Source of the DNA: a virus | Length of the DNA: 39,612 nucleotides | Reading direction: 5' to 3' (one strand) | Virus record (IMG/VR): IMGVR_UViG_3300024502_000023 | Location: 1-39,612 of that record | Shown: positions 74 to 36,267 of the stretch, one piece after another | Layout: the number at the start of each line of letters is the position of its first letter | Position numbering within the stretch: position 1 is the first letter of the stretch | The notes under the pieces: generated by a model | Seen by the model: only the letters and a program-made list of their open reading frames with translations | Databases searched by the model: none | What the model was told of the DNA's origin: nothing | Position numbers and translations under genes: made by a program

Positions 74-678
74 GTTTTCAGTTCAAAGAGCATAACGGTT
101 ACTCCGCTTTTGCTTTATATAATGCGTTGAAATTACATTTCAGTTCACCATCGTATGACTATTTCAAATACCATGGTACAACAAATGTAAGTGAATCAAC
201 ATTTATGAATAGAAGGGACAAATATTCTTTCTATAAATTGTCACGCAAGTACAATCTGGAAGAATTGAAGAATTATTATGTGGCAAATTTCCTAGAAGGT
301 GATGTTCGTTGGGTTGGTGCAATATCTGGTCCTGATGGCGAAGAAACCTACAAGAAATGGCAAGGAAGAAATCAACGCTTGACATATCAGTTCGAACAAG
401 ATATAATATTCTTATTCGATTCATCTGGTAGTTTACTTCATGTTGATAACGGTAGTCATCCATACTTGTTGACAATGATGATGCAAGGTGAGGTGATGAT
501 TGAAACTGTGGCTATATTGAATGACATTATGGGATTCTTTCCTATGTGGCAAAAGAAAATAACTGATGACATTGTGTGGCCAAATTGGAAATTAAAGATT
601 GAAAAATACACACCGTTTATACATTATGATAAAGCCAAATTCAAGGCTATTGTGAAAGAACAATATGAAAATCAGTAA
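70..678 (+). CDS. 59: gp59-like DNA helicase loader
   Basis: The 202-residue product is close to T4 gp59 in length (217). It carries the gp59-like block RRDKYSFYKLSRKYNLEEL around residues 48-66, followed by an aromatic VRWVGAISGPD segment and a C-terminal DDIVWPNWKLKIEKY stretch. In T4, gp59 binds branched DNA and gp32 and loads the gp41 replicative helicase at forks and recombination intermediates. The start overlaps the upstream stop (ATGA), implying translational coupling. In T4, gene 59 is directly followed by gene 32; here an antisense endonuclease gene and a nucleotidase gene lie between them. The last codons overlap the convergent endonuclease gene by 7 bases. Confidence 0.85.
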   Translation: MSFQFKEHNGYSAFALYNALKLHFSSPSYDYFKYHGTTNVSESTFMNRRDKYSFYKLSRKYNLEELKNYYVANFLEGDVRWVGAISGPDGEETYKKWQGRNQRLTYQFEQDIIFLFDSSGSLLHVDNGSHPYLLTMMMQGEVMIETVAILNDIMGFFPMWQKKITDDIVWPNWKLKIEKYTPFIHYDKAKFKAIVKEQYENQ

Positions 679-1250
679 GATTTTCTAGGCAACATACCCA
701 ATTTCCAACCGTCAGGTGGATTTTTGGTTAATAATTGTTCAACACCATTATTGTACCATTTATTTCCTTTTGTTGTTGGTCTTTGATTCAATCGTCCTAA
801 AATCCAACCAACACCAGGATGTTTTGTTGATAAAGAATTCTGTTTGCCATTATTATACCACCTACTAGATTTGTTATATTCACTTCTTCTTTTGGATTGT
901 TCTTTTTTACTTTTTTCTGTTTGTTTTTTACCAAAAGTGCCTTCTCCTCCCAAGGTTGAATTATAACCGTTACTATTCTCAAAATGAATAAAGGAATTAT
1001 ATTCAAGTATAAAATAATTTTCCATTTCATTCAAACAGTGTAATTCATCCTTTGATTGATACAAAACAGACCATTCAAAATTTTCCCATCCATACTTATG
1101 TAACGCATTATAAAATGGATAATCAGGACAAATTTTTGAACGATGTATATAGTAGTGTTGTTGTTTTCTTGATGGCCACCTAGAATCAAAACCTATGTAA
1201 ACTTTACCGTTTAATCTATTGACACATTTGTAGATTGAATATATAATCAT
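672..1250 (-). CDS. GIY-YIG homing endonuclease
   Basis: The 192-residue product begins with a GIY-YIG nuclease domain: SIY at residues 5-7, YIG at 18-20, a likely catalytic Arg at 24 or 28, and the catalytic-type Glu in NEMENYFILEY (E77). The C-terminal half has two related repeats, each WYNNG followed about 15 residues later by GW.LG, which are probably DNA-binding. The ATG at 1250 is preferred over an in-frame ATG at 1292 because GAGAG (1262-1258) lies 7 bases before it and the nuclease fold starts immediately after. The gene is antisense between gp59 and the nucleotidase, the position expected for a free-standing homing endonuclease. A late-promoter-like ATAAATA lies upstream on the same strand. 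Confidence 0.9.
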   Translation of the reverse strand: MIIYSIYKCVNRLNGKVYIGFDSRWPSRKQQHYYIHRSKICPDYPFYNALHKYGWENFEWSVLYQSKDELHCLNEMENYFILEYNSFIHFENSNGYNSTLGGEGTFGKKQTEKSKKEQSKRRSEYNKSSRWYNNGKQNSLSTKHPGVGWILGRLNQRPTTKGNKWYNNGVEQLLTKNPPDGWKLGMLPRKSY

Positions 1251-1308
1251 GCTGATACTCTCAGAAAGTGTTAGAGTAGGTGCAGACGGCAATCTGGCGA
1301 CCTACAAC

Positions 1309-2772: not shown

Positions 2773-2797
2773 AAACCCCGCTTCGGCGGGGTTTTTT
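2773..2797. terminator. Bidirectional Rho-independent terminator with TTCG tetraloop
   Basis: AAACCCCGC (2773-2781) pairs perfectly with GCGGGGTTT (2786-2794) around a TTCG loop. A T-run follows on the plus strand, and a TTTCTTTTT run follows when read on the minus strand. It sits between the convergent gp32 gene and the gene ending at 2796, whose TAA stop lies in the terminator's T-run. Confidence 0.95.
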
Positions 2798-4274
2798 ATA
2801 TGACCACGATATTGTTATAAGTTATTGTTGCGTATGTTGTTTCGTGGTTTCTCACACTTGGTATATCAGTCTTAACTGGTGTTGACTTTGATGCAACACT
2901 ACCAATTATATTTTGATTTTGTATTTCAGGCACCACAGGGTCTGTTGCAGTTAATTTATTATTAATATTGTCATTTGTTGCTGCAACAAGAGCTGCACCT
3001 TGTGGTGACACCATGTTCGCCGGTGCAGAAGATAATGGTGGTGGTGTTTCTGCCGGTGCACCAACGGGTTCTGGTGGGGTATATTCAAGCTTGTTATCAG
3101 TTTTCTTTAAACGATTGAGATTTATACTTTCAGGTATTTTAATGTCCAGTTCTGGCATTTTAACATCACCTGGAATCAAATCACCTAAAAGATTCTTCAA
3201 TCCTTGAATTAACTCTGGACCATTGCCTGTGTCTATCTTAGAATAATCTTCCCAGTTGTCTAGTTTGTATTTGTTATCGTCCCTCACTTTCACCCAACCC
3301 TTTAATTCTTCCATTTTTGCTTTGGAGAAAGTGGTTTCTTCACCGTTTGGACCTAACAAATTATAATATTCTTTTCCTGTTTTGTCTATCATTCTTTCCG
3401 CATTTTTCATTGCGGCTTCGGCATTTTCTTTGGTGTCAGATTGTTGTAACAAGAATTGACCTAATTTGTATGCAGCATAACCTGCCATTAATCCACCAAT
3501 CACCCATGGATTAACCAAAAATCTCAACATTGGTCCAACAATACTAGACAATTTCATAATCATCTTCATTATGTTATTTGACAGAAAAGATTTAACTACG
3601 TCAAATGCGCCTTTTATAACAGACAATACACCACTAATTGATTTTTCAATTGCGGCTAAAACAGAATTCATTACGCCTTTGATAATATCTGTAATTGTTC
3701 CTATTATACCTTTTGCAGCTTTAGCCAAAGTTTCTTCATCAATATCTTTTTTAACAATGAAGGCTCTTGTTTGACCAGTACCACCCAAAGCCTGTAATAG
3801 TTCTTTGTGTCGTCTTTCTTTTTCTAATTCTTTTTCTTCTTTGAAGTTTTCTTCTTTATCAAATCTAGCCTTCATTTCATCTTGTGACTTGACAAGATGT
3901 TTATAAATCTTCTCCAATACCGGTGTTGCAAGGCCTTCACCACCAACATCAGAAATCTTTTTGATTTTATCACCAGTCTTTTTGCGTTCACGGATTGGTT
4001 TTAAACGACCAGTAAAGTATTCAATATCTTGAACATCACGACCAGCCAATCTACCATAGATGGCAGGACCCAAAACAGAACCAAATGTCAATATCTTTAC
4101 GATATTCAATGGGTCTATCTTCTGTGTGAATCCTTTGATTGTGCCTCTTGTTTTAAGAGAAATGGCTTTTGTAATGGCAGTACCAATACTCTTTTCAAAG
4201 ATTAATTGGTCAGCGATTAACTGGGTTAAACCAGTTTTTCTAATTCGTTTGGCTTGTTGATAGGTAATACTCAT
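2796..4274 (-). CDS. Large hydrophobic structural protein, tape-measure/hub-like, last gene of minus operon
   Basis: The product has 492 residues and no family I can name with certainty. A charged helical stretch at about 125-163 contains ERRHKELLQAL, nearly identical to a segment of the upstream 583-residue protein. It is followed by a long hydrophobic helical region (about 185-275, including NPWVIGGLMAGYAAYKLG), then a Pro/Ala-rich linker and a short C-terminal NHETTYATITYNNIVVI. Hydrophobic helices with coiled coils are typical of tape-measure and pilot proteins. Its start overlaps the upstream stop (ATGA), so the two are translationally coupled. I infer an internal tail or hub component; which of the pair is the true tape measure is undecided. 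Confidence 0.5.
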   Translation of the reverse strand: MSITYQQAKRIRKTGLTQLIADQLIFEKSIGTAITKAISLKTRGTIKGFTQKIDPLNIVKILTFGSVLGPAIYGRLAGRDVQDIEYFTGRLKPIRERKKTGDKIKKISDVGGEGLATPVLEKIYKHLVKSQDEMKARFDKEENFKEEKELEKERRHKELLQALGGTGQTRAFIVKKDIDEETLAKAAKGIIGTITDIIKGVMNSVLAAIEKSISGVLSVIKGAFDVVKSFLSNNIMKMIMKLSSIVGPMLRFLVNPWVIGGLMAGYAAYKLGQFLLQQSDTKENAEAAMKNAERMIDKTGKEYYNLLGPNGEETTFSKAKMEELKGWVKVRDDNKYKLDNWEDYSKIDTGNGPELIQGLKNLLGDLIPGDVKMPELDIKIPESINLNRLKKTDNKLEYTPPEPVGAPAETPPPLSSAPANMVSPQGAALVAATNDNINNKLTATDPVVPEIQNQNIIGSVASKSTPVKTDIPSVRNHETTYATITYNNIVVI

Positions 4275-6022
4275 CTTTGTTGAACCAGTTTTCTATGAAA
4301 AGGTGAAGTGTCATCAATTTCACCATCTTCTTTTCTATTTTGTGCAGGTGGTGTAGATTGAACAACGGTGGTATTGATATTCTTCTGTATTGTTTTCGAT
4401 TGGTCTATTTCATTCTTCAATTCAGTGTTGTCTTTTGATACTTGTGCCAGTTTATTGCCTAAATCAGCACCGACTTGAAGTGATAACGATTCCCTCTTGG
4501 TGATTCTATTTAAAAGACCAGGTCTATTTCTTGGATTCTCTCTCAAATATGATTTAAATGCTGTGTCAACATTTTGATAGTCATATTCGGTCAATTTAAA
4601 AATGAAATCACTCGCATTTTTAGCCTGTGATGCATATTGCAGTGCCTCTTTTTCTTGCACAGTACCATACTGTAATCTTCTGTCAGCCAAATACGCAACA
4701 ACTCTATCATCATTTGCAAATTGTGGAAAGGTGAATCGTAAATCACTTTTCACTTTATTCAACACGTATTTGTCATACCACTTTAATTGTGCATCATACA
4801 ATTCACTTGTTTTCTCTGCTGCAGCTTGTCTCCATTGTTTATCGAACTCTGGTGTTCCAGGTTCAGCAGTCAATCCAAATTGTGGATTATCTCTTGCGAA
4901 TTGGTGAATTGTTTTTGAACCAGTATTCATGCCAAAAATACCATAAGATTTTGTACCTTTGGTATCTTTAACAATCTGAGCACTTCTGGACATGGCTTCA
5001 GACTCGGTTCTTGCACCGGTTTCTCCGATTACCGAAATCTTGGCTGCGGTTACCGGTCCCTCAAAGATTCTTTTTGCTGTACCCATAGTTCCAGGTTCAC
5101 TGGGTTCACCGGTTCTTGTTCCACCAACACTGGGTATTGCAGCAGCAGATGCACCTTTAGACATGAAAAGTCCTGCACCAAGACCACCTAGGACTAAAAG
5201 ATTTCTCATGGAAAATAAGCCAGGTTTTTTGTCGAATTTCTTTTCGACACCTTTTAGTTGCCTTTCCATTTTAGTTTTCTTCAATTTATCTTTGATTTGT
5301 TTCGATAAATCTTTCTTCAAGTCTTTTAGATTCTTGTATTCTTTGGTATCTTCCAGTTTTTCTTCTTCACCTTTTAATGCACCAAGAATCTCTTTATGTC
5401 GTCTTTGTTCTTCCAAATCTTCCAACTTTAATTCGACCATGTTCTTTTCTGTTTCCAGTTTTCTTATCTCATGGTTATCTACCATCAGTTCAAAAATAGA
5501 ACCAAGAAGTCCTTCACTGGTGTATTTTTCTGGTGTGAGATTCTTTTCTTCACCTTTTTTGAACAAACCCTTTAGTTTGCCGGTGAATGATGCAACAGAA
5601 GATTCGGCAGTTTTCTTTGATTTATCTGAAACACTTGCTTTTACCTTTGTTTCTGCTCTTGCAGTTTCAGGTTTTGTTTCTTCTTGTGCAATCTTCTCTA
5701 CAGGATCTTTCTTTTGTTCTGGTGTCATACCAGAAGAATTTTCAATCAACTTTCTTATAACTGGTGTAAGTTGAGATTCTGTATAAGCAGGCTTTTGTGC
5801 CTGTGCCATCTTTTTCTTTAGAAGATTGTCTTCCGCTTGTTCTTTGGCTTTTTCTTTTACTTGTTCTAGTTGTTTCTTGGTTAGATTCTGACCACCATCC
5901 ATCATAATCAGGCCAATTTCACCTGCGTCTAGTAGTTCTCTGAAAGTAACATCATCCATCATGCGTAACTTTTGTTCACGCAAGTTCTCAACATATTTCT
6001 CAACTTTTCTAGAATCTTCCAT
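4271..6022 (-). CDS. Tape-measure/hub candidate with muralytic (VgrG-type lysozyme-like) domain
   Basis: The 583-residue product is close in length to T4 gp29 tape measure (590). Residues 1-260 are highly charged and coiled-coil-like, with RRHKEILGAL at 207-216 shared with the downstream gene. A hydrophobic segment (about 273-295) could span a membrane. Residues 328-425 resemble muramidase/chitosanase-like domains of phage tails and VgrG spikes: IGETGARTES (E334 candidate catalytic Glu), then SYGIFGMN, then PGTPEFDKQW with aromatic helices. This would cut peptidoglycan during infection. The gene follows the gp26/gp51-like frameshift pair, as tape-measure genes follow chaperone genes in other phages. 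The lysozyme call rests on motif pattern only. Confidence 0.5.
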   Translation of the reverse strand: MEDSRKVEKYVENLREQKLRMMDDVTFRELLDAGEIGLIMMDGGQNLTKKQLEQVKEKAKEQAEDNLLKKKMAQAQKPAYTESQLTPVIRKLIENSSGMTPEQKKDPVEKIAQEETKPETARAETKVKASVSDKSKKTAESSVASFTGKLKGLFKKGEEKNLTPEKYTSEGLLGSIFELMVDNHEIRKLETEKNMVELKLEDLEEQRRHKEILGALKGEEEKLEDTKEYKNLKDLKKDLSKQIKDKLKKTKMERQLKGVEKKFDKKPGLFSMRNLLVLGGLGAGLFMSKGASAAAIPSVGGTRTGEPSEPGTMGTAKRIFEGPVTAAKISVIGETGARTESEAMSRSAQIVKDTKGTKSYGIFGMNTGSKTIHQFARDNPQFGLTAEPGTPEFDKQWRQAAAEKTSELYDAQLKWYDKYVLNKVKSDLRFTFPQFANDDRVVAYLADRRLQYGTVQEKEALQYASQAKNASDFIFKLTEYDYQNVDTAFKSYLRENPRNRPGLLNRITKRESLSLQVGADLGNKLAQVSKDNTELKNEIDQSKTIQKNINTTVVQSTPPAQNRKEDGEIDDTSPFHRKLVQQR

Positions 6023-6163
6023 TTACTTTTTTCTTTGTTGTTGCAGTTCTTTTATTTTTCTATTTTCTTCTTCAATAAATTGTAACAACATGGCGATATA
6101 AATGTCCCTCTCCCAAGGAATCATTCCTTCCAACTCAGTAAGACTATACTTATGGTGCTGCAT
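6023..6163 (-). CDS. Short gp51-like frame, probably expressed as -1 frameshift extension of gp26
   Basis: From the ATG at 6163 the frame encodes 46 residues beginning MQHHKYSLTELEGMIPWERD and ending in a charged helix (EEENRKIKELQQQRKK). It is too short to appear in long-gene lists but looks conserved in type: the SLTELEGMIPWERDIY pattern is familiar from small tail/baseplate assembly proteins of T4-like phages. No Shine-Dalgarno precedes 6163. The same frame is open further upstream through the end of gp26, encoding YDDLGNYYKTNFALM, so the natural product is probably a gp26 fusion made by frameshifting at 6220-6226. The stop at 6023-6025 abuts the next gene's ATG (6022). Confidence 0.65.
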   Translation of the reverse strand: MQHHKYSLTELEGMIPWERDIYIAMLLQFIEEENRKIKELQQQRKK

Positions 6164-6213
6164 CAATGCGAAGTTAGTCTTGTAATAATTACCTAAATCA
6201 TCATAACGAAGTA

Positions 6214-6942
6214 TTAACCGAAAAAACTTTCGAGGCCCTCCACATCAAATGAGTGTTCATAACCACACTTAGAACATTTGGCCTCAATGCGTTTCTTCAT
6301 CTTTGGCATGTTATTGAAGAAATGTTCCATTCTTTCGAACTGTTGTTGATTCAAAGATTCAACAAACTCAAGTAATTCTTCCTCTGGTGTCTCATTTGCA
6401 TAGTAGAACTGTTCACCGTCATAAATGTATTCGATACAACTTGCAATCAATTTGAACGTCATTTCTGTGACATTCTTTGCTTCCAATGAATCTTTCATTA
6501 TGCCATAAACAGGATATCTCATCTTTACAATGATACTATCCGTTATCTTGATTTCAGGATCAACTATCTCGTCAGCTTCAGGTTTGATTTCAGTCAAATT
6601 GATTTTGGTTTCAATTGTGTTACCACATTGTTTACCTTCTTCAATTTCATTTGTACAACGATACTTTGATTCTACAACCTCACTAACAGATTTGGCTCTC
6701 AGATTCAAAAAGTAATATTCAATATCAATAATTGGTATCTCATTGATATCAAACTTTTCAGACATTGTACAGACATTAATAATGTCATTGATTGAATTCT
6801 GAATGGTTGCAGAGTCATTAGATTCCACAGCCATCAAAAGTGTTTTTTGTTCTTTTACAAGAAACGGTCTGAATTTTACCTTTTTCTTTGAAAGTGGTAA
6901 TTCAAGTTCATATGTTGGCACCTCAAGTTTTGGTAAAGCCAT
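6214..6942 (-). CDS. 26: gp26-like baseplate/tail assembly protein
   Basis: The 242-residue product resembles the T4 baseplate protein family (T4 gp26, 208 residues). It has LELPLSKKKVKFRPFLVKEQ, then a helical LLMAVESND segment, IIDIEYYFLNLRAKSVSEVV, and four cysteines forming a likely zinc ribbon (C in YRCTNE and QCGN, and CSKC near the C-terminus), ending VEGLESFFG. In T4, gp26 belongs to the central hub pathway; the arrangement here suggests a chaperone role for tail assembly. A strong GAGGAG (6953-6948) lies 5 bases before the ATG. Its 3' end carries the predicted frameshift site leading into the gp51-like frame, so two products, 242 and 306 residues, are expected. Confidence 0.8.
   Translation of the reverse strand: MALPKLEVPTYELELPLSKKKVKFRPFLVKEQKTLLMAVESNDSATIQNSINDIINVCTMSEKFDINEIPIIDIEYYFLNLRAKSVSEVVESKYRCTNEIEEGKQCGNTIETKINLTEIKPEADEIVDPEIKITDSIIVKMRYPVYGIMKDSLEAKNVTEMTFKLIASCIEYIYDGEQFYYANETPEEELLEFVESLNQQQFERMEHFFNNMPKMKKRIEAKCSKCGYEHSFDVEGLESFFG
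6220..6226 (-). other. Predicted programmed -1 ribosomal frameshift site (T TTT TTC)
   Basis: In gp26 the last codons are AGT TTT TTC GGT TAA, giving a perfect X XXY YYZ heptamer, T TTT TTC, in the zero frame. About 9 bases before it is GTGGAGGG, a Shine-Dalgarno-like element at the spacing that stimulates -1 shifting in E. coli dnaX. After slippage the frame continues CGG TTA ATA CTT and stays open for 65 codons to the TAA at 6023, giving a 306-residue fusion (6942 to 6023). The joint reads ESFF-RLILRYDDLGNYY. Phage tail-assembly chaperones (lambda G/GT, P2 E/E') use this arrangement just upstream of the tape-measure gene. No clear downstream pseudoknot was seen. Confidence 0.7.
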
Positions 6943-10339: not shown

Positions 10340-11668
10340 ATGGAACTAAAAGACGGTCAAACCGCTCAGTCACAAGACGCAGCAATTGATGATTTAAATA
10401 TCATCACTAAAGAGGGCAAGGAACTTTCAGTAAAACTCCTATTGGTGGAGTTTTCATACTTTGAGGACTTGTTCGCATCTTCTATTTCTGGTTACATAAC
10501 TCTGCGTGACGGATTTAACATCATTGGCACCTGTGGTCTAAATGGTGTGGAATTCTTAGATATAAGTTTTGGTAAAGCCAAAAACTCTACAACAAATCTC
10601 AAACAAAGAGTCAGAATATATCACGGTGAAATAAAACCAGTTGGAAACATGAACAGCCAAATGCTGAAGTTGTATTTCTGTTCGGAAGAATTGGTATTGG
10701 CTGAACAGATGAAAATCAAAAGAGATTTCAGTAGTCATATAAGTGATATGGTTTACCAGATACTAACAGAGGATATGAAAGTATCTGAGGAAAAGATAAA
10801 GCATATCGAATCTACTATCGGTGTTTATGATTTTACTATTCCAACACTAAATCCATTTAAAGCAATCAACTGGTTGTCTCTATATGCAAGACCAACATTC
10901 TCCGATTTGGTTGGTGCAGACATGGTATTCTTCCAGAACCGTGATGGATACAATTTCAGGTCTATTTCTTCAATGCGAACAGATGCACCGATAAAGACTC
11001 TGAATTATCAACAGAACAATTTACCTGGACAAGACCTTGCATCGAAATATAGTTCTGTATTGGACTTTGAGGTTGTCAAATCATTTAATGCACTGAATGA
11101 TATTTCAAATGGTACATATGCAAACCGTGTCATTGTGGTGGATCCATTTACCAGAAGTTATATTGTTAAAGATTTTGATTACAATGAATACATAAAGAAA
11201 GTTACACCAGTGAATGGTGCAGGTGTTATGCCAGAATATACCAATAGGCTTGGTTTAAAAACAAACCAAAACTATGAAGGCAAAATTAAAGTCATTTGGG
11301 GCAACTCTGGTCAAGCAGAAAAAGATTTCATTTCAGATTATGATGGTGCAGTTGCACACGATGTTTTTGCGGAAGAATATGTACGATACAGAACCGCACA
11401 ATTATCTCTTGCATATCAAACAGTGTTAAAGTTGAAAGTTCCTGGTGATCCAACTTTGTCTGTGGGCAAGGTAGTAGATTTCAATGTCTATTCATTGATA
11501 AACGAAACGAACAGACAACTTGATAAATATTATTCTGGAAAATATCTAATAACTGCGGTACGCCATGTAATACAATCTCAAGGTGTGTACCAAACAATTC
11601 TTGAAATAAGTAAAGATAGTTCAGTTCAACCTTATAGTTCTTCAAAGGACATGACTTGGTATGAGTAA
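10340..11668 (+). CDS. 27: gp27-like baseplate hub protein
   Basis: The 442-residue product fits the gp27/VgrG/P2 gpD hub family in layout (T4 gp27 has 391). An N-terminal beta domain includes LVEFSYFEDLFASSISGYIT, a second beta region includes YDFTIPTLNPFKAINWLSLY and later VFFQNRDGYNFRSISSM, and a final beta barrel has LKVPGDPTLSVGKVVDFNVY. The hub trimer surrounds the spike and continues into the tail tube. The stop overlaps the spike OB gene start by 8 bases, matching the physical hub-spike contact. The assignment is by pattern and gene order rather than by a diagnostic motif. Confidence 0.75.
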   Translation: MELKDGQTAQSQDAAIDDLNIITKEGKELSVKLLLVEFSYFEDLFASSISGYITLRDGFNIIGTCGLNGVEFLDISFGKAKNSTTNLKQRVRIYHGEIKPVGNMNSQMLKLYFCSEELVLAEQMKIKRDFSSHISDMVYQILTEDMKVSEEKIKHIESTIGVYDFTIPTLNPFKAINWLSLYARPTFSDLVGADMVFFQNRDGYNFRSISSMRTDAPIKTLNYQQNNLPGQDLASKYSSVLDFEVVKSFNALNDISNGTYANRVIVVDPFTRSYIVKDFDYNEYIKKVTPVNGAGVMPEYTNRLGLKTNQNYEGKIKVIWGNSGQAEKDFISDYDGAVAHDVFAEEYVRYRTAQLSLAYQTVLKLKVPGDPTLSVGKVVDFNVYSLINETNRQLDKYYSGKYLITAVRHVIQSQGVYQTILEISKDSSVQPYSSSKDMTWYE

Positions 11669-12839
11669 TTATGTCGTAAACTCACAGTATTTTTGGACAG
11701 GTGTTGTTGAAGATACCTTGGATCCAATGAGCATGAAAAGATGCAAAGTGCGTATCTTTGGTGTGCATGGTGAAAATGTGCCGACAGAAAAACTACCATG
11801 GGCAACTCCTTTGTATCCTCCTGGCGTAAGAAGTTACAATTCTTTGTTAGAAGGTGAATATGTTGTCGGATATTTCCAAGATGGTAACGCATCACAAGTA
11901 CCAATTATTGTGGGTGTTGTACCTGGTGTTATTCCAACAGGAAGCAAAACATCACCGATTGCAACAAGCACGAGCACAATAACATCCAAAGCATTTAGAG
12001 AAAATAGTCCAGACCCAATTAAGAAAGATGCGCCTGCCGGTGTCAATACAGGTGTTCAACCTGGTCTTCCATCAGTTCCTGCTGCATCAAGAGGTCAGTA
12101 TGAAGGAACAATCTCTTGGGTCACAAATAAAAATTTGACACCAGGTTGTGGAGTAGGACTATCAATTAGTTTAACGGACACGGATTTTGCATTATTTAAT
12201 CCTACTGCTGCAATACAACAAGCAATTAAAAGTGGTAAGAATAAAGCAGCACAAACAATCAGAATGAAATTATCCATAATTAATGAAAATTTCAGAAAAG
12301 TTATGGATGCAATACTTACTGCCATTGGACAAGATAAAACAGGACAATTATCACTTAGTTTTTCTTTGTTGAAACAAGCAGTTAGAAAAGTCAATCAAAT
12401 CACAAAAAAGATAGTCCAGGCAGTAGAATATGCATCTTATTATGTGGGTTTGGTTGAACAAATAAACAACATAGTTAATTATGTTAAGAGTTTACCTAAA
12501 AGATTCCAGGCCTTATTGCAAGAATGTGTAAGTCAATTCTTGGGTTCAGTAAATAATCTGGTGAATCAAGTTAAATCTATTCCAGGTGCAGTTAATGGAC
12601 CAATCGAGAGTGTTCTGCAAACATTAAAACTTACTTCAGAAAAACAACTTGCTGATGCAAGAGAATCTGCAAATATTGCAGCAAGTGGAAATCCAATGGC
12701 CAATTCCATAACTCTGATTGAAAATTCAACAGATGCGGCCAATGTGGCAAACACAATTATACTGGAAATGTCTGCAAATGCAAACTCGACAATTGCAAAT
12801 ACGACAACGTATGATCCTTCTAAAATGAAATCACCATGA
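11661..12839 (+). CDS. 5: gp5-like spike protein, OB-fold part without visible lysozyme
   Basis: The 392-residue product begins with a gp5/VgrG-type OB domain: FWTGVVEDTLDPMSMKRCKV, LPWATPLYPPG, GEYVVGYFQDGNASQVPIIV and GVVPG within the first ~95 residues. T4 gp5 (575 residues) follows its OB domain with a lysozyme and a beta-helix needle. Here residues 100-160 are a Pro/Ser-rich linker, and 175-350 are amphipathic helices with no lysozyme motif that I can see. The needle is in the next gene, which overlaps by four bases (ATGA). The helical domain is unassigned. The spike is therefore split, with peptidoglycan cutting probably done by another protein. Confidence 0.8.
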   Translation: MSNYVVNSQYFWTGVVEDTLDPMSMKRCKVRIFGVHGENVPTEKLPWATPLYPPGVRSYNSLLEGEYVVGYFQDGNASQVPIIVGVVPGVIPTGSKTSPIATSTSTITSKAFRENSPDPIKKDAPAGVNTGVQPGLPSVPAASRGQYEGTISWVTNKNLTPGCGVGLSISLTDTDFALFNPTAAIQQAIKSGKNKAAQTIRMKLSIINENFRKVMDAILTAIGQDKTGQLSLSFSLLKQAVRKVNQITKKIVQAVEYASYYVGLVEQINNIVNYVKSLPKRFQALLQECVSQFLGSVNNLVNQVKSIPGAVNGPIESVLQTLKLTSEKQLADARESANIAASGNPMANSITLIENSTDAANVANTIILEMSANANSTIANTTTYDPSKMKSP

Positions 12840-13663
12840 CAATAGACTTTATACCAACACTAGAACCAGAATCACCAAATAACGAGGACACCCAACCGGA
12901 GTCCAGACACAACTATGTGACTTCTACACCTAGAGGTCATTTCTTTGAAATGGATGATACACCGGACAGAGAAAGAATTAGACTTTCTCACCGTTCAGGT
13001 ACATTTATTGAAATGCACCCTGGTGGAGATGAGGTTCATAAAGTTTATGGTGATGGATATGAAATCACTGTAAAAAATAAACAAGTAATTATTCAGGGTG
13101 ATTGTAAGGTAGAAATACATGGTGATTGCAGCGTACTTGTCAAAGGAGACAAGACTGAAACAATCGAAGGAAACTTTGAACAACATATCAAAGGACATTA
13201 CACTCAGGTTGTTGAGAAATCAGCCAGTGTAAGTGTTGTTGGTGATATGGATGTTAATGCTGGCGCAGGAGCAACAGGTGCACTGTCACTTTCAGCTGGA
13301 GACTATGTGTATGTTGGCACAAACTTGTCAGTTGATGGTGAAATGAGTGCAAAGAAAATTACATCCGAGACAAGAGTTGACGCTTTGGGTGGTATGAGTG
13401 CTGGAGACCAAGGTTTCGTTACCGTTTTAGGTGGTCTTTCTGTGGGAGTACCACTTGCACAACCAGGTCAGATATATTCTTTAGGAAATATTACTACCGC
13501 TGCATCTGTACTTGCAGCCGCTTCGGTAAATGGTTCCATGGGCAATTTCGGTAAAATGACTGCAACCTGGATGACCGATGCAAAGAACGTGGGTACATTT
13601 AATTCACATATACATGATACACCAAAAGGTCCAAGTGGACCACCAACACCTTCTATGAGTTGA
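12836..13663 (+). CDS. Spike needle: gp5 C-terminal beta-helix with HxH tip
   Basis: In this 275-residue product, residues 20-75 (RGHFFEMDDTPDRERIRLSH and FIEMHPGGDEVHKVYGDGYE) match the region that starts the triple beta-helix in gp5/VgrG/gpV spikes. Next comes a ladder of short strands ending VKGD, IEGN and IKGH, typical of Gp5_C repeats. The C-terminus reads NSHIHDTPKGPSGPP with H258 and H260; an HxH pair at the apex binds iron in the P2 gpV and phi92 spikes. T4 instead uses a separate PAAR tip (gp5.4). The start overlaps the OB-protein stop (ATGA), so the pair should be made in equal amounts and assemble together. Confidence 0.85.
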   Translation: MTIDFIPTLEPESPNNEDTQPESRHNYVTSTPRGHFFEMDDTPDRERIRLSHRSGTFIEMHPGGDEVHKVYGDGYEITVKNKQVIIQGDCKVEIHGDCSVLVKGDKTETIEGNFEQHIKGHYTQVVEKSASVSVVGDMDVNAGAGATGALSLSAGDYVYVGTNLSVDGEMSAKKITSETRVDALGGMSAGDQGFVTVLGGLSVGVPLAQPGQIYSLGNITTAASVLAAASVNGSMGNFGKMTATWMTDAKNVGTFNSHIHDTPKGPSGPPTPSMS

Positions 13664-29654: not shown

Positions 29655-32411
29655 ATGGCTAATACAGTTTCTATACTAAGCTATGCAAACACTTTTGGTG
29701 AATGGGTTGTCAACACAAACCTTCTTGCAAAAGAAAACAACGACATTGCAGCTAACAACTATGTAAAACCTACCGGAACATTGTTTCTAAATGATCCTAC
29801 TTTAGGTCTGCAAGTTGCAAACTCAGCCATTATTCAGGGTGCATTACAAGTTACAGGTGTGGGTTCTTATGGATACCTACAAAACAATCTAAGAGTTGAC
29901 GGACAAGTATATGTCACCAACACAACACTAGGATTGGTAAACTCTGGTCGTGCAAACATTGGTGGTCTTTTATTCGCACACGGACCAAATACTGGTTTAC
30001 AAGTATCAAACACAGCAGTAATTGGTGGAAACCTAAATGTTTCTGGTGCGACCACTATTTCCAACACAATGGTTGTTACTGGTGCGGCATCTTTAGAGTC
30101 AACTCTAACTGTATTAGATGATGTTGTACTAGATAAAAATGTTAATGTTACACAAAATACCTATGTAAACGGTTCAGCCTATGGAAGACACCTGTTTGGT
30201 AACACTTCTGTAGAATCACCAAGAATTGTGGTAACAAATGCAATCTATGCACCATCAGCTCGTCAAGATGTGGACATTTTGTATGCAAACACATTAACTG
30301 TACCTGCTGTTGCTTACATACCCACATTAATATCAAACACTGCTGTAACAACACAACAAGTATCAACATCAACACTGACGTCCAATACAATAACAGCAAA
30401 TTCAGTAACTATTGCCACAAGAATTAATGCTGAGAATGCGAATGCTTCGTTTAACAATTTAGATATTGCTGGTCAATTAAGTCTTGCTGGCAATTTCGTT
30501 GTTAATGGACAGACGGTATACAATTCAAACACACTGACATTAAATGCTGGTTCAGGTACTGCACTGTCTGGATATTTGGAAGTTAATAGAGGATCAAGTG
30601 GTTCAAACGCAGCGTTCCGTTGGTATGAAACACAAAAAGTTTGGCAAGTAAAGAATGTAGATTCAAACATATACTACGATGTATTGGACACTTCAGATTT
30701 AAGCAGTGCATTAGACTCTACAAGTTTAGTAACCGCAGCAACATCCAATACCGTAAACACACTGAATAGTTTAATTGCTACGGTAAATACGGCACTTGTT
30801 GCAAACATAACATCATCTGGAATTTATGCAAACGGTGCATTTGCACAGGCCAATGCTGCATTTGCTGCGGCAAACAACGTAACACCTCAGGTACAACCAT
30901 CATTCAACACCGCAAATGCGGCGTTCTCTAGAGCCAATACATCTGCAAATGCATTTGTCGGAACTACAGGTTCTGTAACTCCAACTGGTGGTTCAATTAC
31001 ATTTAGAAGTAATAATGGTGTGGTAGTTGTTGCAACATCTGCAAACACATTGAATGTTAGTACATCACAAGACTTAAGAACTTCTGCAACGCCTACATTT
31101 GCTGGTTTAAATCTATCTTCACCGTTAGCCATATCACAAGGTGGTACTGGTGCATCTTCAGCAGTCGCAGCGTTGACAGCTCTTCTACCTGATGCATCAA
31201 GCACTCCTGCTGGCTATGTACTTGCAACTGCTGGTGTCGGTTCATATTATTGGGCTGCAGGCGGTACAGGAGGTGGCGGCGGTGCAACACCAGGAACAAG
31301 AATCAATACAACAAGATTGTTCCCAACAGTCAATACAAACCAGACCGTATTCACCACACCTGCATATACACCAGGTGCAGGTCAATTAAGAGTTTATATT
31401 GAGGGTGTACGTCAGTATCCATCAGACTATACAGAGACAAGTAACACCACAGTGACACTTGGTTCAACGATACCAGCTGGCAGTTCACTAATGTTAGAGG
31501 TTGATGCATATACTTCTTATGATTTCTATGCAAACAATATTACATTTACTGCACCCGTTGGTGGTATTCCTTCAACAGCCAACACAGTTCAGTTGGCAAT
31601 TGAGAGTATTGAATCTAGACTTGGTAGTTTAGGTGGTACAGATTCTCCAACATTCACTGGAACTCCAAGAGCACCAACTGCTGCGGTAGCCACAAGTAAC
31701 ACAATGATTGCAACTACTGCATTCGTCAAGAATGTACTTGGTAGTGGTACAACATATGATATTAGTATCAGTGGTACGGCTGGATCAGCAGCAACAGCAA
31801 CAACAGCATCTTCTGTTCCTTGGTCTGGCATTACAAGTAGACCAACATTTGCAACTGTAGCTACATCGGGAGCATATTCAGATTTATCTGGCAGACCTTC
31901 TCTAGCAGCCGTTGCAACATCCGGAATATATTCAGATTTAACTGGAAGACCAACGATACCTACGCTTACCAGTCAGTTGACAAACAATTCTGGATTCATT
32001 ACTGGATTAGATTCAAATACTAACTATAGAATACAAGGTTTAGGTGTTGGTACCGCAGCATCAACATATGAAGTTCGTGCATACGGAAACATCACTGCTT
32101 ATTATGGACAATCTGACATTAGATTGAAAGAAAATATTGTTCCGTTGACTGGTGCATTGAATAAGATTGATAAGATTGGCACATACACCTTCAACTATAA
32201 AACAAGACCAGACCAGAAAAACATTGGTGTTATTGCACAGGAACTTATCGAACAGTTCCCAGAATTAGTATATGAAACAACACCTATTGATGAGGGTACA
32301 GGTTTAGATACGTCCCTTGCAGTTAATTATCAATTGTTGAGTGTCGTTCTGTTACAAGCAGTCAAAGAACTCAAGGCTGAAGTTGAAGAATTAAAAGGAA
32401 AGATTAAATGA
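29655..32411 (+). CDS. Tail fibre with C-terminal S74 intramolecular chaperone
   Basis: The 918-residue product is a beta-rich fibre. Repeated VSNTAVIGGNLNVSGATT-type strands occupy the N-terminal half. They are followed by an AFAQANAAFAAANN rod segment, a SQGGTGASSAVAALTALLPD module, a GQLRVYIEGVRQYPSDYTE beta domain and DLSGRP-type repeats. The last ~99 residues are an S74 peptidase/chaperone: SDIRLKENI places S820 and K825 as the catalytic dyad, then KIGTYTFNYK and NIGVIAQELIEQFPELVYE, and a final coiled coil. The chaperone trimerises the fibre and cuts itself off before S820. The stop overlaps the next start as ATGA. Confidence 0.92.
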   Translation: MANTVSILSYANTFGEWVVNTNLLAKENNDIAANNYVKPTGTLFLNDPTLGLQVANSAIIQGALQVTGVGSYGYLQNNLRVDGQVYVTNTTLGLVNSGRANIGGLLFAHGPNTGLQVSNTAVIGGNLNVSGATTISNTMVVTGAASLESTLTVLDDVVLDKNVNVTQNTYVNGSAYGRHLFGNTSVESPRIVVTNAIYAPSARQDVDILYANTLTVPAVAYIPTLISNTAVTTQQVSTSTLTSNTITANSVTIATRINAENANASFNNLDIAGQLSLAGNFVVNGQTVYNSNTLTLNAGSGTALSGYLEVNRGSSGSNAAFRWYETQKVWQVKNVDSNIYYDVLDTSDLSSALDSTSLVTAATSNTVNTLNSLIATVNTALVANITSSGIYANGAFAQANAAFAAANNVTPQVQPSFNTANAAFSRANTSANAFVGTTGSVTPTGGSITFRSNNGVVVVATSANTLNVSTSQDLRTSATPTFAGLNLSSPLAISQGGTGASSAVAALTALLPDASSTPAGYVLATAGVGSYYWAAGGTGGGGGATPGTRINTTRLFPTVNTNQTVFTTPAYTPGAGQLRVYIEGVRQYPSDYTETSNTTVTLGSTIPAGSSLMLEVDAYTSYDFYANNITFTAPVGGIPSTANTVQLAIESIESRLGSLGGTDSPTFTGTPRAPTAAVATSNTMIATTAFVKNVLGSGTTYDISISGTAGSAATATTASSVPWSGITSRPTFATVATSGAYSDLSGRPSLAAVATSGIYSDLTGRPTIPTLTSQLTNNSGFITGLDSNTNYRIQGLGVGTAASTYEVRAYGNITAYYGQSDIRLKENIVPLTGALNKIDKIGTYTFNYKTRPDQKNIGVIAQELIEQFPELVYETTPIDEGTGLDTSLAVNYQLLSVVLLQAVKELKAEVEELKGKIK

Positions 32412-33553: not shown

Positions 33554-33775
33554 ATGGCAACGAATCCTCCGTCAACAGTAAGAGTAACCATAGGGCAGAA
33601 CAATCCTTCTGTAACAGCCCTAAGTTATGGCTCTAGAACACTAAAAAGTGCAGCAGATTTAAACCTGACCAATGCACAGGATGGTTATCCGATAATTTAC
33701 CAGGCAAACACCAATACATTTGTCGTTGGTCCTGCTCGTGCTGAGATTCTTTCTGTTGATAATGGATTCTTTTAA
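33554..33775 (+). CDS. Small conserved-looking fibre-operon protein
   Basis: The 73-residue product begins TNPPSTVRVTIGQNNPSVTA and ends in NTFVVGPARAEILSVDNGFF. The segment LTNAQDGYPIIYQANTNTFV resembles beta modules found in fibre proteins. It lies between the Ig-like protein and the long fibre gene; its TAA shares a base with the next ATG (TAATG), so translation is coupled. I do not recognise a named family. It may be an N-terminal connector for the fibre. Confidence 0.6.
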   Translation: MATNPPSTVRVTIGQNNPSVTALSYGSRTLKSAADLNLTNAQDGYPIIYQANTNTFVVGPARAEILSVDNGFF

Positions 33776-36267
33776 TGGCAAATAATACCATACAAATTCT
33801 TCGTTCATATACAAACACTGCGCCGACATTCCTTTATGACGGTCAGTTAGCATATTCATTTGTCAACGATACATTATACATTGGTAATACTGCACAACAA
33901 GTCAGAGTAATTGGTGGTGCAAATACAGTATCAAGAGTTAACAGTGGTTACAATGTTGCAAACAATGCAACACTACTTGCACAACAAGCTTATGATGCAG
34001 CCAATGCGGCAGGTTCTAGTGCAGCTGTAAACGCAGCTTCATCATATGCAAACTCGGCTTTTGTTAAGGCCAATTCTGCATATGCACAAGCCAACTCTGC
34101 ACAATCACATGCACAGGCAGCATTCAATGCGGCCAATAATGCATCTGTTGCACAGTCTGCATTCATACAGGCCAATGCAGCATTTGCGGCAGCCAATAAT
34201 AATGCAAATACAATTACTCTGGTACAAGGTGTTGATACCTTCCAGAACACATTGATTACGGCTGCACAGACACATGCAAGTCAAGCCTTTAACCGTGCAA
34301 ACGGTGCATTGTCTAACACTGGCGGCACAATTAACGGTTCACTGAGCATTTCCCAAGACTTACAAGTATCAGGAAACCTGGTCGTTCTAGGAAATGTGGT
34401 AAACGTATCTACATCCGAAGTCTATGTAAATGATCCTTTGTTGTTCCTGGCGAACAATAACACCACGGATGCAGTCGATATCGGTATTGTGGGCCAGTAC
34501 AGTAACCTTGGTGCAAATACCAATACCGGTTTGTTCCGTGATCCTAATCTGAAAGAATGGATTTTCTTCCAGGGATACACAGCCAGAACAGGTTCAAACA
34601 ACCTAATTAATATTGCACACCCATCGTTTACATATGCAAACGTATATGCAAGCACATTCAAGGGCAGTGTAATTGCAAACACAATATTTGTTGGTGGTAT
34701 TAATGTACAACCACATATGGTCGCAACATTTGTTCACGCAAATGTGGCAGCCAACATTGCAAACTCTGCCGGTGTATATGCAAACGGTGCATTCGTACAA
34801 GCCAACGGTGCATTTATTGCTGCGAATACAGCAGACGGTAAGGCCGTTACGGCTGGTAACTATGCGAACTCAGCCTTTGCACAAGCAAACAATGTAACCG
34901 CAGCATCAACATATGCAAACGGTGCATTCGTACAAGCCAATTCTGCTTATGCATATGCAAACACATTGTCTGGTGGTATCACATCAGCGGGTGTTTATGC
35001 AAACGGTGCATTCATACAGGCAAATTCTGGTTATTCTTTCGCAAATAACACCTATGTTTACACTCAAGTAACTTATGGTGTTGCCGAAGGCGCAGCCACA
35101 AAGGCACAACAGGCATGGGACACTGCAAATGCTGCGTATGCGGTCGCAAACACTGGTGTTCCAGGTCAGGCAACAGACCAATCTGCCAGAGACCAAGCTA
35201 ATTCTGCGTATGCACAAGCCAACTCTGCATCTTTATATGCAAACGGTGCGTTCAGACAAGCTAATGCATCTTTCTTAGTAGCCAATAATGCATCCAACAA
35301 TGCAACAAGTGCTGGTTTATATGCAAACGGTGCATTCAGACAAGCAAACTCATCGTATGAACAGGCAAATACAAATGCCACAAACCTAATAACTGTTGGT
35401 GTCTATGCAAACGGTTCGTTTATACAGGCAAATGCTGCATTTGAACAAGCAAATCTAGCCTTCACAGCAGGTGGTATCACCGCAGGTTCATATGCAAACT
35501 CCGCATTTCTGAAGGCAAATGCTGCATACGGATTTGCAAACACAGTTTATTCTAGTTATGCATACCCAGCTTATGAGAACGCAATTGCGGCAGGCAACTA
35601 TGCAAACTCTGCTTTCAAGTATGCCAACTCAGCATATCTACACGCAAATGCATCTTTTGCATATGCAAACACACTGAACTCCACAATTGGTGGACTTTCT
35701 GGTGTAGATTTAACACAGAATACGTTAATAACTGTTGCACAAACACAAGCAGATTATGCATTCTTAGCTGCCAATTCTGCATCTTTATATGCAAATGGTG
35801 CATTTATACAGGCAAATGCAGCCTTTGGTGTTGCAAACAATGCTTTACCAAAATCTGGTGGTACAATCACAGGTACATTGACTGTACAGGGATTCACCAC
35901 ACTACAATCAAATACATACGCAACGCATGTTTTACCTGCGGCGAACGTAGCCTATGATTTGGGTGCACCGAATAGAAGATGGAAAAAATTATGGTTGGCC
36001 GGTAATACAATTGACCTTGGTGGTGCGGAGATTTCTGCAAACAATGGTGCAATATCTTTGACCAGTGATACTGGTGCAACATTTACCATCTCAGGAACAT
36101 CTGGTTCAGCAGTTGGTTTCTTTGATTATGTACAAGCAAATTCAACCGCATCGTCAACTTCCACAACAACAGGTTCTATTGTTGTTGCTGGTGGTATTGG
36201 TGCAGCAGGTAATGTAAATATTGGTGGTGCATTAACAGCGAATTTAATTTCTGGTGGTACATTCTAA
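33775..36267 (+). CDS. Long repeat-rich tail fibre
   Basis: The 830-residue product starts with TIQILRSYTNTAPTFLYDGQ, a module also found in altered form at the start of the next gene. Most of the protein is repeats of the YANGAFxQANxxF type broken by QGVDxxQNTLI elements and the ADGKAVTAGNYANSAF cassette. Residues about 190-280 are a beta module (SISQDLQVSGNLVVLGNVVN, VDIGIVGQYSN, LFRDPNLKEW) shared with the next gene. The C-terminus has YDLGAPNRRWKKLWLAGNTI and a TGSIVVAGGIGAAGNVNIGG stretch. The repeats suggest a trimeric helical rod. It has no S74 chaperone of its own. Confidence 0.82.
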   Translation: MANNTIQILRSYTNTAPTFLYDGQLAYSFVNDTLYIGNTAQQVRVIGGANTVSRVNSGYNVANNATLLAQQAYDAANAAGSSAAVNAASSYANSAFVKANSAYAQANSAQSHAQAAFNAANNASVAQSAFIQANAAFAAANNNANTITLVQGVDTFQNTLITAAQTHASQAFNRANGALSNTGGTINGSLSISQDLQVSGNLVVLGNVVNVSTSEVYVNDPLLFLANNNTTDAVDIGIVGQYSNLGANTNTGLFRDPNLKEWIFFQGYTARTGSNNLINIAHPSFTYANVYASTFKGSVIANTIFVGGINVQPHMVATFVHANVAANIANSAGVYANGAFVQANGAFIAANTADGKAVTAGNYANSAFAQANNVTAASTYANGAFVQANSAYAYANTLSGGITSAGVYANGAFIQANSGYSFANNTYVYTQVTYGVAEGAATKAQQAWDTANAAYAVANTGVPGQATDQSARDQANSAYAQANSASLYANGAFRQANASFLVANNASNNATSAGLYANGAFRQANSSYEQANTNATNLITVGVYANGSFIQANAAFEQANLAFTAGGITAGSYANSAFLKANAAYGFANTVYSSYAYPAYENAIAAGNYANSAFKYANSAYLHANASFAYANTLNSTIGGLSGVDLTQNTLITVAQTQADYAFLAANSASLYANGAFIQANAAFGVANNALPKSGGTITGTLTVQGFTTLQSNTYATHVLPAANVAYDLGAPNRRWKKLWLAGNTIDLGGAEISANNGAISLTSDTGATFTISGTSGSAVGFFDYVQANSTASSTSTTTGSIVVAGGIGAAGNVNIGGALTANLISGGTF
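34008..35862 (+). repeat. Array of YANGAFxQAN-coding direct repeats
   Basis: Near-identical DNA units such as TATGCAAACGGTGCATTC followed by a .ACAAGCCAA-type sequence recur many times across this part of the fibre gene, for example near 34779, 34914, 34997, 35237 and 35319. Units are in frame and irregularly spaced, so recombination between them would change rod length without a frameshift. Confidence 0.75.

Follow-up and report, generated by a model that had tools for sequence, protein, structure and literature searches.

A conserved T_TTT_TTC slippery site between gp26 and a gp51-type -1 frame predicts a frameshifted tail assembly chaperone in an uncultured freshwater T4-like phage

The tail assembly chaperone (TAC) genes of T4-like phages were reportedly identified by Vladimirov, Gautam and Davidson (Virology, 2022), who are said to have linked gp26 and gp51 to the frameshifting chaperones; that work reportedly describes frameshifting as conserved in several T4-like groups, with T4 itself carrying separate genes 26 and 51. 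Among long-tailed phages, T4 was named as the exception to an otherwise broad conservation of G-T frameshifting (Atkins et al. 2016, PMC5009743), and lambda makes gpG and gpGT at a ratio of about 30:1 (PMC5009743). Poly-T sequences are known -1 signals in the TAC-N genes of T4-like phages (PMC12846349, citing Vladimirov et al. 2022), and a fused long copy among T4-like tail chaperones has been described in agreement with the same authors (PMC10885494). Cyanophage gp51 was found to lack about 200 N-terminal residues in a study that left frameshifting unmentioned (Sullivan et al. 2010, PMC3037559). Here we analyzed the gp26 junction of IMG/VR record IMGVR_UViG_3300024502_000023 (positions 1 to 39,612, hereafter the window), a fragment from an uncultured freshwater clade. 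Judged from sequence, a -1 programmed ribosomal frameshift on T_TTT_TTC very probably yields two TAC forms, the short gp26 and a long one of 306 aa, beside the putative tape-measure gene. The initial annotation of the window had linked the gp26/gp51 system to the frameshifting chaperones; the link itself stands, and the novelty it implied does not, the connection having been published in 2022. Because that publication, PMC10885494 and PMC12846349 agree, the locus is a clear, well-supported further example of a frameshift already reported for several T4-like groups.

Direct reading of the gp26 3′ end (GTG GAG GGC CTC GAA AGT TTT TTC GGT TAA) confirmed what the initial annotation had reported there, namely an in-phase heptamer with GGAGGG 9 nt before it, a -1 frame open to 6023 that encodes 65 residues, and the absence of a Shine-Dalgarno (SD) sequence belonging to that frame (Table 1). 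After the slip the -1 frame starts with CGG (6220) and runs through 6026, giving a fusion (TAC-NC) of 306 residues. Its earliest start codons in the window, TTG at 6166 and ATG at 6163, both lie 3′ of conserved coding sequence, and neither is preceded by a purine-rich SD. No other in-phase T6Y heptamer occurs among the 11,358 codons of the 24 window genes, and this one stands 4 codons from a stop; shuffling the stretch gives p = 0.0023 for an open -1 frame of 65 codons. Against chance, the comparative sequence evidence given below is far stronger than these single-window statistics.

Table 1. Features at the gp26 junction and immediately downstream, in window positions (ORF, open reading frame)
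Feature	Position	Strand	Details
gp26-type short form (TAC-N)	6214..6942	minus	242 aa; ATG 6942; stop TAA 6216-6214; PF12322, phrog_150, AlphaFold2 model
SD-like GGAGGG	6241-6236	minus	9 nt upstream of the heptamer's first T; probable upstream stimulator
Slippery heptamer T_TTT_TTC	6226-6220	minus	Phe240-Phe241; in 0-frame phase; direct sequence reading
-1 frame C-terminal extension, gp51-type domain (RLILRYDDL...QQQRKK)	6023..6220	minus	65 residues; stop 6025-6023
583-aa ORF, candidate tape-measure or hub protein	4271..6022	minus	ATG abuts extension stop (TAAATG); assigned by position
492-aa ORF, tape-measure-like	2796..4274	minus	phrog_3981 'tail length tape measure protein', E 2.8e-05 (weak match)

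Relatives were collected by IMG/VR scans with five gp26 queries and from annotated phage records, yielding 255 loci, of which 250, with gp26 identities down to about 25%, have an intact junction; 75 representatives below 85% identity were drawn from them. The scans with KVP40-like and PhiW-14 gp26 queries returned almost only themselves, a genome-contig scan gave no relatives, and the closest isolate phages in the collection searched have gp26 proteins at most about 40% identical. All 250 intact junctions carry the in-phase heptamer (T_TTT_TTC in 234, T_TTT_TTT in 16), 6 to 30 nt upstream of the gp26 stop, and a -1 extension of 45-80 codons follows wherever the contig is long enough; no locus among them keeps both frames after losing the heptamer. 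The arrangement is found in Kyanoviridae, the Vibrio KVP40 group, Emdodecavirus, Pootjesviridae, Aeromonas phiAS5, Delftia PhiW-14 and Acidovorax ACP17. All six T's are retained in 75/75 representatives, even though the codon holding the first T may be AGT, AAT, GAT, TCT, GCT, CAT or ACT, so that the encoded amino acid varies among six while the T stays; on the assumption of independent rows, codon usage gives this a chance of about 1e-18. The locus has the layout of a frameshifting TAC (TAC-N/TAC-NC), with two overlapping frames of which the second is in -1 phase and lacks a conserved independent start, and the programmed -1 frameshift predicted by the initial annotation is thus supported by its relatives.

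Both parts belong to recognizable families. The window gp26 matches PF12322, the T4 gp26 family, with E 1.3e-60 (205.3 bits vs the curated Pfam cut-off of 24.5) and phrog_150 with E 7.6e-64; this was the only PF12322 match in the 39.6-kb record, which is a fragment in which a distant second copy may have escaped detection. The extension gave a hit to phrog_634, 'baseplate hub assembly catalyst' (E 2.5e-29), and another to positions 231-276, the C-terminal part, of the phrog_150 profile (E 8.7e-07), indicating that some phrog_150 members hold both parts in one protein. T4 gp51 consists of a PF12322 domain (residues 1-201, E 3.9e-52) running continuously into an extension-type domain (phrog_634, E 1.2e-23) and is therefore a continuous version of the window's fusion; gp51 of Citrobacter phage Ursula, VR7 and phiAS4 likewise holds both domains, which provides the continuous gene that the initial annotation had proposed to look for in relatives. 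T4 gp26 comprises PF12322 alone and ends just past Phe-Phe. In T4, Ursula and VR7, where gp51 is a separate full-length gene, the Phe-Phe of gp26 is encoded by TTC TTT, without a heptamer, and phiAS4, with the same two-gene arrangement, has no Phe-Phe at all. Among the phages examined, every one with its extension in the -1 frame retains the heptamer, and no other does. The gp26/gp51 tree can be explained by a single duplication in the T4/Tulanevirus lineage, although it is unrooted, its support is weak to modest (87/90) and the Campylobacter copy is unplaced. That copy, in Campylobacter phage WX1 (L095:949-1689), joins gp26- and gp51-type parts continuously in one gene next to the terminase gene; it is very divergent and may represent an independent fusion or duplication.

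The evolution of the -1 frame bears on whether it is read from the slip site. No ATG, GTG or TTG occurs from -30 to +24 nt of the site in 52 of the 75 representatives, and in 55 of 179 unique loci no start codon occurs before +56, the middle of the conserved region. Across the stretch +11 to +56, substitutions in 89 independent sister pairs fall 145:113:296 on -1 frame codon positions 1:2:3, and the 27 pairs without a possible start give 56:47:97, indicating that protein-level selection acts on the -1 frame even 5′ of any initiation codon. It is accordingly very unlikely that the extension forms a separate small gene, gp51, initiated at its own start codon or by reinitiation after the gp26 stop, even though GenBank annotates it so in P-SSM2, S-PM2, phiN3 and others among many cyanophages, and an ATG stands 2-5 nt past the gp26 stop in the marine SMAHED-type clade and Schizotequatrovirus. 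An ATG soon after that stop is likewise present in P-SSM2, S-PM2 and KVP40-like phages, and serves as the annotated gp51 start in the first two; it is a lineage feature. An independent gene has no start codon shared across relatives, fails to account for coding constraint that reaches 5′ of the window's first start, leaves the T6 conservation unexplained, and sits poorly with fused gp51 homologues, which unite the two parts in a single protein. Two isolate genomes, S-H9-1 (L098) and ACG-2014d (L100), have a gp51-type -1 frame directly after gp26 that carries no annotation.

Upstream of the heptamer, SD-like cores occur in 52/75 representatives vs 27.7 +/- 4.2 in synonymous shuffles, none of 500 being as high, in support of the SD-like element pointed out by the initial annotation. 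The Glu codon contributing to the element is GAG in 34/59 cases vs 478/1837 elsewhere (p 6e-7, somewhat overstated because the sequences are related). Downstream, in the marine P-SSM2 clade (65 unique junctions), the stability of the region immediately after the heptamer far exceeds that of synonymous shuffles (mean z -3.4). In the P-SSM2-type clade an 11-bp stem-loop begins 5 nt 3′ of the heptamer (L081:4720-4754; related marine loci L101-L180) and includes the ATG annotated as the gp51 start; S-PM2 has, by eye, an apparently different, longer stem at a similar place. Pairing in the marine hairpin is kept in 92.8% of cells, and two rows show one pair with both partners exchanged (U-A to G-C), the same pair being unpaired in 12/29 rows; covariation for this stem is thin, with too few changes to prove the hairpin by covariation alone.

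These data also bear on whether the long form could arise by transcriptional rather than ribosomal slippage on the T run, an explanation that we consider highly improbable. The run is a homopolymer and reaches T7 or T8 in 6/75 representatives; it is exactly six in the other 69, without drift to longer runs, and always in X_XXY_YYZ codon phase, and the upstream SD-like element together with the marine downstream hairpin are typical ribosomal stimulators. A continuous gene broken by a sequencing error or pseudogenizing indel in the error-prone T run is a practically negligible explanation, refuted by relatives that show the same frame relation in 250/250 loci, from many metagenomes as well as isolate genomes, with selection on both frames. 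Independent initiation, transcriptional slippage and sequencing error were thus each tested and rejected, on the start codons, T-run lengths and frame conservation of the relatives, respectively.

Some points count against programmed ribosomal frameshifting into a chaperone pair, or lessen its force. The sequences compared are phylogenetically related, so that probabilities assuming independence are overstated. No conserved downstream stem-loop was found in the window's own clade (mean z -0.28 vs synonymous shuffles), leaving the heptamer and the SD-like element there. Finally, the match to a solved chaperone structure is only suggestive: the AlphaFold2 model of gp26 (pLDDT, the predicted local confidence, 87.9) agrees well with gp26 models from other phages, and a Foldseek search with it placed the HK97 tail assembly chaperone 2OB9 at ranks 2 and 4 with a probability of 0.35, a TM-score of 0.40 by target length and E 1.8-2.3, which is not significant. 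This was the model's only chaperone-type hint among solved structures; a PDB sequence search returned nothing relevant and an Rfam search nothing above threshold.

For the frameshift reading we propose the following course of events. The majority of ribosomes would translate the 242-aa gp26 and terminate at TAA 6214, and slippage in vivo would occur at an efficiency that makes it the minority outcome. That minority would probably pause as the SD-like GGAGGG pairs with 16S rRNA and would slip -1 on T_TTT_TTC, the two tRNA-Phe re-pairing from TTT-TTC to TTT-TTT, and then add 65 residues to give the 306-aa protein. The short TAC-N and the rarer long TAC-NC would form a chaperone pair acting on the tape-measure protein putatively encoded just downstream, and the long form would probably recruit the tail-tube subunit through its gp51-type tail, as lambda gpT does. 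Assignment as a putative tail assembly chaperone follows from homology and position.

Next to the predicted chaperone gene, the extension is directly followed by an ORF that begins at 6022, and the next ORF shows weak tape-measure PHROG matches, so that either is a candidate tape measure. Residues 334-507 of the first of these ORFs weakly match the VgrG3-like C-terminal domain PF21277 (25.4 bits vs a cut-off of 27), which suggests a putative embedded peptidoglycan-active domain. Elsewhere in the window, gp5 is seemingly split into two ORFs (11661-13663, plus strand), of which the second (12836-13663) has a gp5 C-terminal trimerisation domain at E 3.2e-05, under the cut-off, and the first has no Pfam match and no recognised lysozyme domain. 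A TTG-started 206-aa ORF (672-1292, minus strand) with repeated WYNNG motifs is, by eye, GIY-YIG homing endonuclease-like, without a Pfam match at E 0.001. Two long tail-fibre-like proteins are encoded on the plus strand, one (29655-32411) ending in an endosialidase chaperone (Peptidase_S74, E 3.9e-15) and the other (33775-36267) bearing ANSAF/ANAAF-type repeats, without a Pfam match.

The scale of the conservation test may be new here, as may the clade-specific stimulators and the lack of a heptamer in the duplicated lineage; the enriched upstream SD-like element, and the downstream hairpin that marine cyanophages have and the window's clade lacks, are possibly unreported. The chances seem about even that T4-like phages share one frameshift site with lineage-specific stimulators, a strong stem-loop after the heptamer in marine cyanophages and, in the window's freshwater clade, an SD-like element but no conserved hairpin, that the T4 lineage instead underwent gene duplication without a heptamer, and that many cyanophage gp51 annotations are misread, since the marine stem-loop includes the annotated ATG. 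The large comparative set supports frameshifted tail chaperones in a phage group abundant in lakes and oceans, to which T4, the textbook model, is the exception with two genes. In many cyanophage genomes gp51 has probably been misannotated as an independent gene or missed, and the hub 'catalyst' gp51, whose function was long obscure, is best interpreted as a tail assembly chaperone in its long form.

Among known systems, the T4-like tail assembly chaperones reported by Vladimirov et al. (2022) come closest, sharing the protein families, gene order and short/long logic of the window, which differs in representing an uncultured freshwater clade. T4 offers the same two forms, gp26 as the short one and gp51 as PF12322 plus the C-terminal domain, from two divergently transcribed genes without a heptamer, whereas the window has one gene and a frameshift. 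Lambda gpG/gpGT resembles it in pairing a short form with a rarer long form that acts on the tape-measure protein; lambda and P2 (E/E′) are not T4-like phages. Escherichia coli dnaX and insertion sequence (IS)-type -1 cassettes are different genes and differ from the window's clade, which has no conserved downstream hairpin, but they combine a heptamer with an upstream SD-like element just as the window does, and its marine relatives add the downstream hairpin as well.
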